From: Bacteroides sp.
GTDB lineage: Bacteria; Bacteroidota; Bacteroidia; Bacteroidales; Bacteroidaceae
Length of the DNA stretch: 64,000 nt
Direction: 5' to 3'
Assembly: GCA_021202275.1 (NCBI GenBank)
Contig: JAJQDI010000015.1
Location: 100,637 to 164,636 of the forward strand
The notes below the pieces were generated by a model. It saw only the letters and a program-made list of their open reading frames with translations, was not told the DNA's origin and made no database searches. The translations under genes and the position numbers were made by a program. This document shows, piece after piece, positions 10,068 to 18,130 of this stretch (position 1 is its first letter; every line of letters begins with the position of its first letter).

Positions 10068-10255
10068 ACTTTACTTTCCCTACATATACTGACGGCAGCC
10101 AGTGACTTAACTATCTGTTTTACAAATACTGCTTACGAAACGGTTTTGCCGTCTTTGATTCCATTTTTGCCTCATTCATCCTGAAACAGACTGCCAGCCT
10201 CATTTCATTTTTGATCTTTGCACAACGCTTTTTGACAGGTAGGGGCAGATCCTAT

Positions 10256-10283
10256 GTTTGAATTGAACAAGCAATCGTTTGAA
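10256..10283 (+). promoter_or_regulatory. AraC-type operator upstream of the first aldo/keto reductase gene
   Basis: Two GTTTGAA half sites start at 10256 and 10277, 21 bp apart (two helical turns). The second half site starts 36 bp before the -7 box. A near-identical arrangement with the same spacing precedes the flavodoxin gene at 12968. The AraC-family gene between the two promoters is the likely regulator. Confidence 0.65.
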
Positions 10284-10323: not shown

Positions 10324-11346
<1,023 letters not shown>

Positions 11347-11447: not shown

Positions 11448-12356
11448 ATGATTGAAAGCCTGACGGAATTTTACAAACGGATCGAACGCCCTGAAATGGC
11501 AACCCTGACCACTCTTGCCAGAGGGAAAGAGTTTTTCAATGTACAGGAAAGTGTATGCCAGTTTGGTACAACCTCTTTTAGTTACAGGGATTTTTATAAA
11601 GTGCCCCTGGTGATGCATACGGGAAGGCTATATTATGCCGATAAGTGGATTGAAGTAGACCGCCCGGCCATTCTTTTTTCTACACCTTTGATCCCATACG
11701 CATGGGAAAATACGGGAATGGGCAAGGGAAACGGCTATTTCTGCATTTTCAACGAACTCTTCCTCAAACCCGGCGACCGCAACAGTTCGCTGGCAGAAAC
11801 TCCGTTATTGGATATTTCTAAAGAACGGATCTATTTTCTGAACGACAAAACGGTAGACACCATTCAGGATCTTTTTATCAAAATGAAAAAGGAAATGGAA
11901 TCTGATTACGCACAGAAATCCGATATGTTGCGTTGCTACCTGCATCTGATCGTACATGAAGCCATGAAGATGCACCAGGCAAACCACTATGTAGCCAACA
12001 AAAACGCCAGCCAGCGCATTGCCGAACTTTTCCTGGCTCTGCTCGAACGTCAGTTCCCGGTTGACTCACACAACAGCCTCTCTCTGAAAACAGCCAACGA
12101 CTTTGCCCGGCGGCTTTCCGTACATGTGAATCACCTCAACCGGGTAGTAAAGAGTACCACCGGACGCACGACCTCTTCTCTCATTTCAAACCGTATTACC
12201 CAGGAAGCGGTGCAATTGTTGCAGCATTCGGATTACTCCATTGCCGAAATTGCTTTTGCGCTGGGATTTGAAGAGCCGGCCTCTTTCAGTAACTTCCTCA
12301 AGAAGCATACGGATATGTCGCCTACAGAACACCGGGGGAAAGCGGTGGCGGTATAA
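11448..12356 (+). CDS. AraC family transcriptional regulator
   Basis: A 302-residue regulator with an N-terminal cupin-like sensing domain (about residues 1-170) and a C-terminal double HTH. Visible HTH parts are SVHVNHLNRVVKSTTGRTTS and YSIAEIAFALGFEEPASFSNFLKKHTDMSPTEHR (written here only as a marker of the second HTH, about residues 255-290). It lies between an aldo/keto reductase and a flavodoxin gene, a common context for AraC proteins that sense electrophiles or control NADPH-dependent reductases. Paired GTTTGAA sites precede both neighbouring promoters, so it probably activates both transcripts. The ligand is unknown. Confidence 0.92.
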   Translation: MIESLTEFYKRIERPEMATLTTLARGKEFFNVQESVCQFGTTSFSYRDFYKVPLVMHTGRLYYADKWIEVDRPAILFSTPLIPYAWENTGMGKGNGYFCIFNELFLKPGDRNSSLAETPLLDISKERIYFLNDKTVDTIQDLFIKMKKEMESDYAQKSDMLRCYLHLIVHEAMKMHQANHYVANKNASQRIAELFLALLERQFPVDSHNSLSLKTANDFARRLSVHVNHLNRVVKSTTGRTTSSLISNRITQEAVQLLQHSDYSIAEIAFALGFEEPASFSNFLKKHTDMSPTEHRGKAVAV

Positions 12357-12430: not shown

Positions 12431-12667
12431 CGTGGATATACATCCTGACCTCGTGTGGCAATCCGGCAACAGAAGAAAAAAGTAATCGGACAGATACCAT
12501 AACCTACCGCAGGGTCATTTACCATCATCGGTTCCTGTTCGGGAGACTCATCCTATTTCTTTTCCTTCATCAGATTTCTCTTTTATAAAGTTTGGGGTAT
12601 ATGGATGGATACAAAGATAAATTATTTAAGAGGATATACTCATTTGTCTGATATATAATTCGTATTG

Positions 12668-12892
12668 CAGAGACGCATAGTGGCATCTCATTCTATTCAT
12701 CTATCCAAACAGATCTATCTAACCGAGACGCAACTACACGTCTCTTATGTTTGCATATAAAGTGTTACGCATAGGGACTCAAAACAGATTCTTTCTGTAA
12801 TTTCAATCGTACATCGTAATTAACTTCGCTGACCGTTGGTTGACTTTGTCGACTGTTGGTTCAGTACATCGTAAATCTCTTTACGTCTCTAC
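12668..12892. repeat. MITE-like intergenic repeat, copy 1
   Basis: It begins CAGAGACGCATAGTGGCATC and ends in TCTCTTTACGTCTCTAC, so the termini are imperfect inverted repeats of AGAGACGYA. An internal part (TTTCTGTAATTTCAATCGTA) is shared with copy 2 at 15191-15363. There is no coding capacity. A nested second AGACGCA...CGTCT hairpin near 12723 makes this copy longer than copy 2. Confidence 0.7.
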
Positions 12893-12967: not shown

Positions 12968-12995
12968 GTTTGATTTGAACAAGGAATCGTTTGAA
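12968..12995 (+). promoter_or_regulatory. AraC-type operator upstream of the flavodoxin gene
   Basis: Half sites GTTTGAT (12968) and GTTTGAA (12989) lie 21 bp apart, with the core TTGAACAAG-AATCG between and around them as at 10256. The second site starts 36 bp before the probable -7 box, the same distance as at the first operator. Confidence 0.65.
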
Positions 12996-13065: not shown

Positions 13066-13632
13066 ATGAAAACAAACATTTTAATATTCCTTATGACGAC
13101 ACTCTTTGCGGCAAACAGCACTTCTATGTTTGCACAGACAGGTAACGGAAAGAAAGTGCTTATCGCTTATTACTCCCTGCGCAACGGCAATACCCGTATG
13201 GTAGCTGAACATATTCAGAAAACCGTGGGCGGAGAGATGTTCCGCATCGAAACCGTAGCTGCCTATCCGGCTGTTTACAACGACGTGACCGCACAGGCAA
13301 AAAGGGAACTCGAATCCGGACATCGTCCTACCCTGAAAACCACCGTACCTCATTTTGACGAATACGATGTTATCTACCTCGGTTCGCCGAATTGGTGGAA
13401 TACCCTTGCTCAGGCGGTGATGACTTTTCTGGAAACCTATAATTTTGAAGGCAAAACCATTGTTCCGTTTATCACCCACGAAGGCAGCCGCCTGGGAGCC
13501 AGTGTAACCGATATAGAGAAACTTGCTCCAAAAGCCACTGTACTCAAAGGACTTCCGGTGCGTGGCGGTTCGGTAGATAGTGCCCTGCCTGATGTACAGA
13601 AGTGGCTCAAAGAAATCGGGATGACCCCATAA
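13066..13632 (+). CDS. Exported flavodoxin
   Basis: A 188-residue flavodoxin-fold protein (Flavodoxin_4 type) with a cleavable N-terminal signal (about residues 1-24, ending MFAQ), so it should act in the periplasm or be membrane-associated. The FMN phosphate loop is YYSLRNGNTRMV (about residues 35-46), and GSPNWWNT with a following PFITHEGSRLG supplies the other flavin-contacting loops. An exported flavodoxin needs an electron donor at the membrane, and the polyferredoxin gene starts only 13 bp downstream. Its promoter carries the AraC-type operator. Family membership is firm; the physiological partner is inferred from gene order. Confidence 0.9.
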   Translation: MKTNILIFLMTTLFAANSTSMFAQTGNGKKVLIAYYSLRNGNTRMVAEHIQKTVGGEMFRIETVAAYPAVYNDVTAQAKRELESGHRPTLKTTVPHFDEYDVIYLGSPNWWNTLAQAVMTFLETYNFEGKTIVPFITHEGSRLGASVTDIEKLAPKATVLKGLPVRGGSVDSALPDVQKWLKEIGMTP

Positions 13633-13645
13633 TACATACCTTCCT

Positions 13646-15190
13646 ATGCTTAAAAAAATAAGAGTTGTTACCGCTACTGTTTTCCTGCTGCTGATCACCT
13701 TGTTGTTTCTGGACTTCACAGGGATTCTACACCAGTGGTTCGGCTGGCTGGCTAAACTGCAATTTATACCGGCATTTCTCGCTGTGAACATCGGGGTAAT
13801 GGTCGGATTGCTTTTTCTGACCCTGCTTTTCGGAAGAGTCTACTGTTCCGTAATCTGTCCTTTAGGCGTGTTTCAGGACGGTATCTCCCACCTTTCCGCA
13901 CGAAGGAAAGGAAAGAAGAACCGCTTCCGCCATTCCCCTGCTGTATCATGGCTGCGTTACGGCATGTTAGTTGTATTCATCATAGCCCTGATAGCAAAGG
14001 TCAGCATCCTTGTTTCCCTGCTCGATCCCTATGCGGCCTATGGACGTATCACCTCCGGTCTGTTGAGTCCTTTGTACCGCTTAGGCAATAATTTACTGGC
14101 ATGGCTTGCCGAACGGGCAGACAGCTACGCCTTTTATACCACCGAAGTATGGATAAAAAGCTATATCGTTCTGGCAGTAGCTCTCATTACCCTTATCGCT
14201 GTGGCGATACTCGCGTGGAGGGGTGGACGAACCTATTGCAATACCCTTTGTCCGGTAGGTACTATGCTGGGATTTCTCTCCCGTTTCGCTATCTTCCGGA
14301 TGGCATTCGACAGGAATAAATGTACCCGTTGCAAAGCCTGCGAACGTACATGTAAAGCCTCCTGCATCAATGCCGCAAACCTCACCATAGACCACAGCCG
14401 TTGTGTCACCTGCTTCAACTGTATCAATAGATGCAAAACCGGTGCGATGAAATATACATCCCGTTTCGGCAAACGATCTGTAAACCTGCCTGCGGATAAA
14501 GAGAGTGCTCATACTTCTGACAACATACAGACAACAGATCATCCGGTACAGGAAGGAGTACAAAAAGGTCGTCGCAATGCCCTGACCCTGCTTGCAACAG
14601 TGGCTGTGGCACACACCCTCAAAGCACAACAAATACATGTAGACGGTGGGTTGGCAGCCATAGAGAAGAAAAAAATCCCCAAACGGAACCATCCCATTGT
14701 TCCACCGGGTGCGGTAAGTGTCCGCAACCTGACGGCACATTGTACCGCCTGTCAGCTTTGTGTCTCGGCCTGTCCCAACGGTGTATTGCGTCCTTCGTCG
14801 GAACTATCTACCCTGATGCAACCCGAAATTTCTTACGAACGGGGCTACTGCCGTCCCGAATGTACCGAATGCTCACAGGTATGTCCGGCAGGAGCCATCA
14901 TACCCATTACCCCTGCCGATAAAGCAGGACTATCTATCGGTACAGCGGTATGGATAAAAGAAAACTGTAGGGTGAACCGGGATGAAGTACAATGCACCAA
15001 TTGTGAATATCACTGCCCTACGAGGGCTATTACGCTGGTCGACCGTAATCCCGGCTACAGCGATTCACTCCGGACCCCTGTAATAAATAAAGAATTATGT
15101 ATCGGTTGCGGAGCCTGTGAAAATCTCTGTCCGGCACGTCCGTTCAGTGCGATCTACGTGGAAGGAAATGCAAGACACCATTTAATATAA
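13646..15190 (+). CDS. Membrane polyferredoxin, NapH-NapG-like fusion
   Basis: A 514-residue iron-sulfur protein. The N-terminal NapH/YccM-like half has about four membrane helices with two CxxxCP sites (VYCSVICP near 66; TYCNTLCP near 197). A first pair of ferredoxin clusters follows at about 226-265 (CTRCKACERTC, CVTCFNCINRC). A second twin-Arg hydrophobic stretch (GRRNALTLLATVAVAHTLKA, about 308-327) leads into a NapG-like domain with four more Cys clusters: about 366-376, 402-413, 450-457 and 485-495. NapH and NapG are normally separate and pass quinol electrons to the periplasm. Here they are fused and no nitrate reductase gene is present, so the exported flavodoxin and aldo/keto reductase neighbours are likelier acceptors. 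Confidence 0.85.
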   Translation: MLKKIRVVTATVFLLLITLLFLDFTGILHQWFGWLAKLQFIPAFLAVNIGVMVGLLFLTLLFGRVYCSVICPLGVFQDGISHLSARRKGKKNRFRHSPAVSWLRYGMLVVFIIALIAKVSILVSLLDPYAAYGRITSGLLSPLYRLGNNLLAWLAERADSYAFYTTEVWIKSYIVLAVALITLIAVAILAWRGGRTYCNTLCPVGTMLGFLSRFAIFRMAFDRNKCTRCKACERTCKASCINAANLTIDHSRCVTCFNCINRCKTGAMKYTSRFGKRSVNLPADKESAHTSDNIQTTDHPVQEGVQKGRRNALTLLATVAVAHTLKAQQIHVDGGLAAIEKKKIPKRNHPIVPPGAVSVRNLTAHCTACQLCVSACPNGVLRPSSELSTLMQPEISYERGYCRPECTECSQVCPAGAIIPITPADKAGLSIGTAVWIKENCRVNRDEVQCTNCEYHCPTRAITLVDRNPGYSDSLRTPVINKELCIGCGACENLCPARPFSAIYVEGNARHHLI

Positions 15191-15363
15191 CAGAGACGCA
15201 TAGTTGCATCTTATAGGTTTGCATATGAGATTTGTCTATGGAAGTCTTACAGATATATGCTTTCTGTATTTTCAATCGTAAATCGACAATGTTCCTTGAT
15301 GCTAAAAACCGACTCATGGTCATGACCGAAGGGAGTAAATCGTGAATCTCTTTACGTCTCTAC
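15191..15363. repeat. MITE-like intergenic repeat, copy 2
   Basis: It starts with CAGAGACGCATAGTTGCATC and ends with TCTCTTTACGTCTCTAC, matching the ends of copy 1 at 12668-12892. It shares the internal TTTGCATAT and TTTCTGTA-TTTCAATCGTA blocks. It fills the gap between the polyferredoxin gene and the next reductase gene. Confidence 0.7.
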
Positions 15364-15386
15364 AAACCAGAAACCCAAAAAGTGAA

Positions 15387-16790
15387 ATGGAAAATAAAAA
15401 AAATACATCCCGCCGGGATTTCCTGAAAACCCTCGGAGCCGGTTCGCTTGCTGCTACTGCTGCCCTGTACGGATGCAAAGACAACAAAAACGCCGTATCT
15501 GCCGAAGGTGGTTCCATAGGCGAAGTGCCTACCGATAAAATGACCTACCGCATCAACCCTGCCACAGGCGACCGGGTTTCCCTGCTTGGCTACGGCTGTA
15601 TGCGCTGGCCGCTGCGCCAGAAAGCCGACGGAAGTGGCGAGGAAATAGATCAGGACACGGTAAATGAGTTGGTCGACTATGCCATTGCTCATGGAGTCAA
15701 CTACTTTGATGTTGCTCCCACGTATGTGCGAGGTTGGTCGGAAGCTGCCACCGGGACAGCCCTGAAACGACATCCCCGTGACAAATACTATATCGCTACC
15801 AAACTATCTACCCACCGGGAAGATCCCGGACTCCGCACCTTCGAAGGCTCTACGGCACTCTACCGCAAATCCTTTGAAAATTTACAGGTAGATTACATCA
15901 ACTATTACCTGCTCCACGCCATCGGACTGGGTGGAATGCCTGCCGTGATGGAACGCTTCTACGACAATGGTATGCTCGATTTCCTGCTGAAAGAGAAAGA
16001 AGCCGGACGCATCCGCAACCTTGGCTGGTCGTTCCACGGCGATGTGAAAGCTTTCGACTTCCTGCTCTCCCAACAGGACGAAGGAAATGTGCAATGGGAT
16101 TTTGTGCAGATACAGCTGAACTGTATCGACTGGCAAAACGCATCCGGCTGGAATACCAATGCCGAATACCTGCTCGGTGAGTTGGAAAAACGCAATATCC
16201 CTGCCGTTATCATGGAGCCTTTACTTGGCGGTCGCCTTTCCCGTGTGAGTACCGAAGCCTTGCACCTGATGAAACAGGCACGACCGGAAGATAGTGCAGC
16301 ATCCTGGGCGTTCCGCTATGCCGGAACCCCTGAAAGCATACTTACCGTACTGACAGGAATGGTCTATATGGAGCATTTGCAGGAAAATATCCGTACCTAT
16401 TCACCGCTTGAACCGCTTACGGCGCAGGAATATGAAATACTGGAAAAGGTAACCGAAATACTGCTCAATGACGAGTATGTACAATGTACCGAGTGCCAGT
16501 ATTGCATGCCTTGTCCTTACGGGCTGGATATTCCCGGTGTATTCGGACATTACAACCGCACGATCAGCGCAGGCAAACGGCTCCGGAGTTCCAACGACGA
16601 AAACTATAAAAAAGCCCGCCGTGACTTCCTGATCGGTTACGACCGCAGTGTGCCCAAACTCCGGCAGGCAAACCATTGTATTGCCTGTGGACTCTGTAAG
16701 CCCCATTGTCCGCAGACAATCGACATTCCTGCTGAGATGCGCCGGATAGACCGATATACGGAACAATTGAAACAGAAAACGGATTTTTAA
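15387..16790 (+). CDS. Tat-exported aldo/keto reductase with C-terminal 4Fe-4S ferredoxin domain
   Basis: A 467-residue protein. The start at 15387 is chosen over 15342 because it places the twin-arginine motif (SRRDFLK, residues 8-14) at the N terminus, followed by a hydrophobic stretch and a lipobox-like LYGC (Cys30), suggesting a Tat lipoprotein. Residues about 50-345 are an aldo/keto reductase barrel (GYGCMRWPL, FDVAPTYVRG, KLSTHRE). The C terminus has CTECQYCMPCPYG and CIACGLCKPHCPQ, two 4Fe-4S sites as in ferredoxin-linked AKRs. It could accept electrons from the flavodoxin or polyferredoxin encoded upstream. The substrate is unknown. Confidence 0.88.
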   Translation: MENKKNTSRRDFLKTLGAGSLAATAALYGCKDNKNAVSAEGGSIGEVPTDKMTYRINPATGDRVSLLGYGCMRWPLRQKADGSGEEIDQDTVNELVDYAIAHGVNYFDVAPTYVRGWSEAATGTALKRHPRDKYYIATKLSTHREDPGLRTFEGSTALYRKSFENLQVDYINYYLLHAIGLGGMPAVMERFYDNGMLDFLLKEKEAGRIRNLGWSFHGDVKAFDFLLSQQDEGNVQWDFVQIQLNCIDWQNASGWNTNAEYLLGELEKRNIPAVIMEPLLGGRLSRVSTEALHLMKQARPEDSAASWAFRYAGTPESILTVLTGMVYMEHLQENIRTYSPLEPLTAQEYEILEKVTEILLNDEYVQCTECQYCMPCPYGLDIPGVFGHYNRTISAGKRLRSSNDENYKKARRDFLIGYDRSVPKLRQANHCIACGLCKPHCPQTIDIPAEMRRIDRYTEQLKQKTDF

Positions 16791-16800
16791 ATGGAAGGAA

Positions 16801-17181
16801 ATGGAAAAGATTATAAATCTGATGTATGAAAGTGACTGTTCCTGTGTAGTAGAAAATTACGGGAAGGTATTCACTTTTCACAAACAGGGAGTAGCCGACC
16901 TCTATGATATGGTAACAAATAGATCCTGTTTTCTCAAAGATGCTTCGATTGCCGACAAAGTAGTTGGAAAAGCGGCCGCGGCTCTGATGATTCTGGGAAG
17001 TGTGAAAAAGGTGTATGCGGAAGTCATCAGCCTTTCCGCTCTTATCTTACTGCGTGATGCCGGGATTGAGACTGATTTCCGGAATGTGGTGCCTTTTATC
17101 TGGAACCGCGTCCGGACTGACTGGTGTCCGTTGGAGCGAATGTCGTACGACAAAAAAAGGCAGAAGAAATTTTACCATTGA
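16801..17181 (+). CDS. DUF1893 domain protein
   Basis: A 126-residue cytoplasmic protein of the DUF1893 family (Thermotoga TM1506-like, cytidine-deaminase-related fold). The conserved block is ASIADKVVGKAAAALMIL followed by a strand-helix unit and a second conserved region near PFIWNRVRTDWCPLE. The function of the family is not established. It starts 10 bp after the Tat reductase gene and is probably co-transcribed with the redox operon. It is often found next to redox or Fe-S genes, but that is a general impression. Confidence 0.8.
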   Translation: MEKIINLMYESDCSCVVENYGKVFTFHKQGVADLYDMVTNRSCFLKDASIADKVVGKAAAALMILGSVKKVYAEVISLSALILLRDAGIETDFRNVVPFIWNRVRTDWCPLERMSYDKKRQKKFYH

Positions 17182-17705: not shown

Positions 17706-17736
17706 ACAAATTCCGTTTTATTGGAATATTAAAAAG

Positions 17737-18130
17737 TGGAGCTGGAGGGAATCGAACCCTCGTCCAAACGAGGAAACCGCAAGCTTTCTACATGCTTATC
17801 TTTGCCTGAGTTTTCGTGTACGGGCAGAACCAAAGCCATCAACCCATACCTTATCCTCTAAAGTTTCATCTGCGGTGCGAGGCCATCACAGACTATCTCC
17901 GATTTGACTGCACCACCGGATCGGAATGCTTCGGAGCAACAGCTTCCGGGTGATGTCTTGTCCAAGCACCTGGTGCCCGGATTAAGTTAATCTACTGTGA
18001 TTCGATTAAGCAGCAAGAGCGTAGTTATTTTCGCCAGATAAAATGTTGATAACTGAGATTTAAGTGCCAATTAACGAAGCACTGCATGCTTACTCACCAT
18101 TTCTTCCCGCTGTCAAATCCAGTCAACCCC
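17737..18130 (-). ncRNA. ssrA: tmRNA
   Basis: Transfer-messenger RNA that rescues stalled ribosomes and tags their products. On the minus strand the 5' end GGGGTTGACTGG pairs with the 3' end CAGCTCC followed by the discriminator A. The T-arm GGTTCGATTCC lies just before it. The tag frame at 18035-18006 reads GENNYALAA then TAA, the known Bacteroidetes-type tag. The encoded 3' end is ACT rather than ACCA, so CCA must be added. The mature length is about 394 nt. Confidence 0.95.

Follow-up and report, generated by a model that had tools for sequence, protein, structure and literature searches.

A candidate menaquinol-powered periplasmic aldo/keto reductase fed by a NapH-NapG fusion polyferredoxin in Bacteroides and its relatives

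Aldo/keto reductases are generally described as soluble enzymes that use NAD(P)H. A member of the superfamily that carries export signals and iron-sulfur motifs raises the question of how it would be supplied with electrons outside the cytoplasm. Such a protein is encoded in a 64,000-nucleotide stretch of Bacteroides sp. (GenBank assembly GCA_021202275.1, contig JAJQDI010000015.1, positions 100,637 to 164,636 of the forward strand; hereafter the window), downstream of genes for a flavodoxin and for a polyferredoxin that joins a NapH-like to a NapG-like half. An earlier note on interval 13066-17181 had read these three genes as an extracytoplasmic redox system passing electrons from quinol through the fusion to the flavodoxin and on to the reductase. 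The three open reading frames (ORFs) are present as it described, with the domains that it named (Flavodoxin_4; Fer4 and Fer4_5; Aldo_ket_red and Fer4), and the interval also encodes a DUF1893/TM1506 protein that it had left out. We consider it probable that menaquinol powers the fusion and the reductase as a joint periplasmic reductase, where electrons would go straight from the fusion to the clusters of the reductase itself.

To this question we brought 80 loci, the best 80 of at least 578 confirmed stretches from one genome-collection scan, picked by likeness to the window reductase, and a set of 41 genomes, 27 of which carry the reductase (E below 1e-100). The window genome, G000, measures 4.43 Mb and is 95% complete. 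Counts are taken over loci and genomes regardless of kinship; neighbors are counted on the same strand within 6 kb of the pair, with some contigs short, and locus ORFs come from a naive caller that takes the first start after a stop, several starts therefore being overlong. In 78 of the 80 loci, a fusion gene on the same strand is found no more than 1 kb from the reductase; in 73 it is upstream. The two loci without it are L114, where the contig starts at the reductase, and L069. Among the reductase genomes, 26 of 27 also carry at least a fragment of the fusion, and in the sole genome without one, G008, the reductase sits 35 bp from a contig end. The conserved core is the fusion plus the reductase, and to this extent the extracytoplasmic redox system stands.

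The pair and its relatives occur in other settings as well. The window genome has a second fusion-reductase pair (L025, contig C15) with an FMN_red gene upstream. Near relatives of the pair are found in loci titled Holophagales, Holophagaceae, Verrucomicrobia or Planctomycetaceae (L075, L083, L076, L085, L089, L090 and L091), which may reflect transfer or mis-binned contigs. A sister operon couples the same class of fusion to a DUF362 protein, often with an S-component-like protein (L048-L054, L062, L063 and L026); a Tat signal on the DUF362 protein was seen in L049, and the window genome holds one such operon (L026, contig C5).

What kind of electron carrier is the fusion? The matches are to NapH models in the N-terminal half and to NapG models in the C-terminal half. 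The cysteine pattern is that of NapGH-type proteins, with CX3CP and two 4-Cys motifs in the NapH-like half and four 4-Cys motifs in the NapG-like half, each Cys column being 98-100% conserved over 109 aligned rows. Four strong hydrophobic stretches are present, as expected of a NapH-like half with four transmembrane (TM) segments. At the start of the NapG-like half, R309 is found in 100 of the 109 rows and R310 in 104, and RR or KR is followed by at least 12 uncharged residues in 97. The segment after the RR has a mean hydropathy of 0.91, compared with 1.86-2.93 for the first four stretches, and is followed by the positively charged KKKIPKR.

This arrangement has a precedent. The polyferredoxin (PFD) of MLMS-1 is a NapH-NapG fusion that needs both Sec and Tat, and Tat-dependent translocation of its C-terminal half has been demonstrated (Tooke et al. 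2017, PMC5449189). Common to the two proteins are the fused halves, the RR before a weakly hydrophobic TM5 and the positive charges after it; because these features match, the window fusion is, as judged from its sequence, of the same architecture and thus known in kind. The MLMS-1 paper deals with assembly; "aldo" and "operon" are absent from its main text, and we found no partner enzyme, receptor or regulator named in it. As in the NapGH of periplasmic nitrate reductase, the Cys-motif pattern, the topology logic and the proposed route from quinol to a periplasmic reductase are recognizable, whereas the window version is fused, falls below the NapH and NapG cut-offs and belongs to a genome without a NapA match. 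The earlier note had remarked on the absence of nitrate reductase subunits, and no match to the partner NapA is found in G000 at its 95% completeness. A TatC gene is present in the window genome and in 39 of the 41 genomes searched. In 4 of 80 loci it is a neighbor of the pair, and in G025 (L177) it adjoins DUF1893 and an S component.

The reductase itself appears equipped both for export and for receiving electrons. Its N terminus reads SRRDFLK...LYGC, with the RR and the lipobox Cys at least 95% conserved over 112 rows. RR pattern and lipobox occur together in 97 of 111 reductase ORFs and RR without lipobox in 3; the pattern was not found in 11, some of which have mis-called starts or variants such as RK or RN. 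With the hydrophobic N-terminal stretch of the flavodoxin (residues 4-23), the twin arginine of the fusion and the TatC gene, the signals that the earlier note had seen are borne out at the level of sequence. The reductase has a TIM barrel with the conserved D-Y-K-H catalytic tetrad that is a hallmark of the aldo/keto reductase superfamily, in addition to eight Cys in two 4-Cys motifs (Table 1). ATG 15387 is the better start, because the alternative GTG at 15342 falls within a dispersed repeat that recurs upstream of the flavodoxin. Pieces of this repeat, at 12663-12892 (upstream of the flavodoxin) and 15186-15363 (between fusion and reductase), have AGAGACG-type and CGTCTCT-type ends and are perhaps similar to miniature inverted-repeat transposable elements.

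Whether the flavodoxin stands between these two proteins is a separate matter. It is immediately upstream of the fusion in just 8 of 80 loci, a count that includes L068, where the match is a 99-residue ORF, leaving 72 without it there, and it is found within 6 kb in 12. Full-length flavodoxins near the pair start with a signal-peptide-like stretch, as read by eye. Presence in genomes was followed through one family, Flavodoxin_4, which has no match in 11 of the 27 reductase genomes, 7 of them at least 90% complete, with G021 a single contig. An obligatory path from quinol through the fusion and the exported flavodoxin to the reductase is therefore unlikely, the more so as the two 4-Cys motifs of the reductase could take electrons directly, and this part of the earlier note is not supported in its original form: the note had named rarity of the gene combination elsewhere as refuting, which is what is seen for the flavodoxin. 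The local arrangement speaks for such a path, since the flavodoxin gene lies 13 bp before the fusion, behind a putative operator, and accounts for one of only two Flavodoxin_4 matches in the genome; in the window lineage, a relay may thus operate. We regard the flavodoxin as accessory, and in this lineage it would be an added carrier or side acceptor. As for other flavoproteins, FMN_red-type proteins are found beside 8 of 80 loci and a nitroreductase beside 1. The FMN_red protein of L025 starts with a twin arginine, and a nitroreductase-family protein with a signal-peptide-like start is encoded downstream of the pair in L027 (11387-12025) and L143 (7621-8259).

Direct transfer from fusion to reductase is the reading that we prefer, because genomes without Flavodoxin_4 carry the reductase, and this protein has two 4-Cys motifs of its own. 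The NapH-like half would oxidize menaquinol, electrons would cross to outer [4Fe-4S] clusters predicted for the NapG-like half, and these would directly reduce the two clusters of the reductase, which would in turn reduce a small, probably carbonyl-bearing compound. A carbonyl substrate is favored because of the catalytic tetrad and because a cytosolic aldo/keto reductase has the same putative operator. Electrons might also flow in the opposite direction, with the aldo/keto enzyme oxidizing a periplasmic hydroxyl compound and the fusion passing electrons to menaquinone, which would suit the finding that the closest solved relatives of the reductase are L-galactose dehydrogenases. However, PMC5449189 describes NapGH as a quinol dehydrogenase, and no neighbor pointing to oxidation was found, making the reverse direction quite improbable.

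Several observations weigh against the menaquinol-powered reductase. The fusion scores under the NCBIfam equivalog cut-offs (72.2 vs. 234 bits for NapH and 59.8 vs. 269 for NapG), and L069 has 8 kb of upstream sequence yet no fusion. Within the window, fusion and ATG 15387 are 196 bp apart with the repeat in between, so co-transcription there is only putative; a sigma-70-type promoter scan (12 vs. 9.6) and a terminator scan (7 vs. 5.4) both gave values near the shuffled mean. Most FMN_red neighbors are without a signal and so lend no support to an exported flavoprotein partner, and the close placement of the flavodoxin described above counts here as well. As to the neighborhood, DUF1893, S component and receptor are all missing from 41 of 80 loci, and the riboswitch search described below was negative. 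An aldo/keto barrel lacks a converter of its own between one- and two-electron steps, and the chemistry from cluster to barrel is accordingly hypothetical. The link may be a nicotinamide cofactor held tightly and exported along with the folded enzyme, or the chemistry may be of another kind. Alignments of the cofactor site, compared by eye, decide neither for nor against a lost nicotinamide site.

Regulation offers a further view of the substrate. A 31-bp stretch lies ahead of the flavodoxin, and a copy matching it at 29 of 31 positions precedes the cytosolic aldo/keto reductase gene at 10360. In the whole 4.43-Mb genome, the 27-bp pattern drawn from this stretch is matched at exactly two places when up to 3 mismatches are allowed. 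Both places are at the locus, with an AraC gene between them, and the reversed control of the pattern has 0 matches in the genome. Elsewhere, in approximately 2.1 Mb of loci, the pattern occurs only in L065 (two sites), L067, L068, L179 and L180. Five of these six outside sites precede a flavodoxin or, in L179 and L180, DUF1893 and a TonB receptor, while the second L065 site (8134) precedes no recognizable gene. All five site-bearing loci hold a relative of the window AraC protein (42-71% identity), those upstream of the flavodoxin in L065, L067 and L068 being 68-71% identical. The sites of the window, L065, L067 and L068 went into the making of the pattern, so that independent evidence comes only from the L179 and L180 sites and from how rare the pattern is. 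L058, with an AraC relative (49%) and no site at 3 mismatches, counts against its universality. We propose the element as a putative AraC operator. In the presence of their substrate, the AraC protein would switch on both the envelope system and the cytosolic aldo/keto reductase, and the compound would therefore be reduced inside as well as outside the cytoplasm. In Escherichia coli, the AraC-family regulator YqhC, with YqhD/DkgA, provides an aldehyde response that is cytosolic and NADPH linked. The likeness lies in an AraC-type regulator beside an aldo/keto reductase, whereas the window adds an envelope arm that is likely quinol linked. A full match to the Bacteroides promoter consensus (TTTG, TAnnTTTG) at 10231-10260 overlaps operator copy 1; before the flavodoxin, the consensus matches at the second box only.

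The remaining conserved neighbors may bear on the fate of the product. DUF1893 accompanies 28 of 80 loci, a protein with the fold of an energy-coupling factor (ECF) S component 30, and a TonB receptor 21, with any of the three at 39. DUF1893 is present in 20 of the 27 reductase genomes and in 0 of the 14 others, and in 15 of the 20 it lies no more than 1 kb downstream of the reductase; in G023 (L058), an AraC gene is between them. Along with the solved DUF1893 relative in Table 1, PDB 9e9a is also listed (E 0.0034). The S-component fold is confirmed for the partner in relatives, and its structure matches do not single out a ligand, as riboflavin, thiamin, biotin, folate, pantothenate and cobalt components all match. 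EcfT (CbiQ family) is matched in only 1 of 25 genomes, by a model that matches 10 of 14 control genomes. In five receptors scanned, models for B12, siderophore and heme ligands all remained below cut-off. In the window genome, the neighbors of one S-component relative are a metallo-beta-lactamase-fold protein and a plain aldo/keto reductase (L174, 8778-11613). By clustering, 7 of 80 loci have a gene of similar lactamase fold ahead of the fusion (L028 7172-8275 scanned).

In many relatives, the TonB receptor and the S-component-fold protein would bring the compound across two membranes, a picture that can be developed into reductive salvage. A molecule resembling a vitamin or active in redox reactions would enter through the receptor and be reduced in the periplasm by the quinol-fed enzyme, after which the solitary S-component-fold protein would pass the product to the cytosol for DUF1893 to act on. 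We hold this to be possible and rather doubtful. The window contig has no S component, and no receptor-sized ORF lies between the locus and 22000; no riboswitch was found in the 17 loci searched, just tRNAs and the GibS small RNA. Moreover, S-component relatives also adjoin DUF362 genes and hence are not specific to the reductase. With equal reserve, we tentatively sketch a quinol-driven reductive-import machine, in which a Tat-exported iron-sulfur reductase fed by the fusion would work on TonB-imported substrate without a soluble nicotinamide supply and an EcfT-less S component would deliver the product to DUF1893; in a sister machine, a Tat DUF362 protein would replace the reductase. The features of the window locus are collected in Table 1. 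Beyond them, a transfer-messenger RNA gene lies at 17736-18130 on the minus strand, with the tag GENNYALAA.

Table 1. Features of the locus, in window coordinates
Feature	Position	Strand	Basis
Putative AraC operator copy 1 (two GTTTGA-type half-sites)	10257..10283	+	Pattern search; upstream of cytosolic aldo/keto reductase
Cytosolic aldo/keto reductase, lacking Fe-S motifs and signal; putative second regulator target	10360..11346	+	Aldo_ket_red 249.6 bits; site upstream
AraC-family regulator	11448..12356	+	Domain match; relatives in L065, L067, L068
Putative AraC operator copy 2	12969..12995	+	Pattern search; ~70 bp before flavodoxin start
Flavodoxin_4 protein, predicted Sec signal peptide, accessory component	13066..13632	+	Flavodoxin_4 84 bits
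NapH-NapG fusion polyferredoxin, 514 residues	13646..15190	+	NapH, NapG models match below cut-off; Cys columns
Fusion twin-arginine motif (residues 309-310) and weakly hydrophobic fifth TM-like segment, start of NapG-like half	14570..14626	+	Alignment, hydropathy
Tat-signal, lipobox aldo/keto reductase with two 4-Cys ferredoxin-type motifs	15387..16790	+	Aldo_ket_red 102 bits and Fer4 models
Reductase segment with both 4-Cys motifs	16485..16709	+	Eight Cys conserved in 99-100% of 112 rows
DUF1893/TM1506 protein, no signal, partner	16801..17181	+	145.2 bits; solved relative 1vk9

Modular NapH-type systems for extracytosolic electron transfer are known (eLife 2021, PMC8238504), and the locus resembles them in having a modular NapH-type membrane protein of a kind that serves varied extracytosolic enzymes. 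Those systems are gathered around flavinylated FMN-binding domains, with "keto" absent from the main text of that paper, whereas no FMN-binding (ApbE target) domain was found among the six window proteins scanned. In the open-licence literature, we did not find a Tat-signal, ferredoxin-motif aldo/keto reductase as a NapH-type partner with DUF1893, a TonB receptor and an EcfT-less S component, nor did the searches there return anything on DUF1893 or on an exported flavodoxin. PMC10434189 mentions flavodoxin, with keto reductase and polyferredoxin absent from its main text, and the "NapH" matches listed for PMC11304471 refer to naphthoquinone rather than to the NapH protein.

If the proposed system is real, anaerobes would run aldo/keto chemistry outside the cytoplasm, driven by the respiratory chain, which would open a view on the little-explored envelope chemistry of these organisms. 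DUF1893 and a solitary family of ECF S-component-like proteins would gain a context as well, and the pair points to a substrate handled by Bacteroidota.
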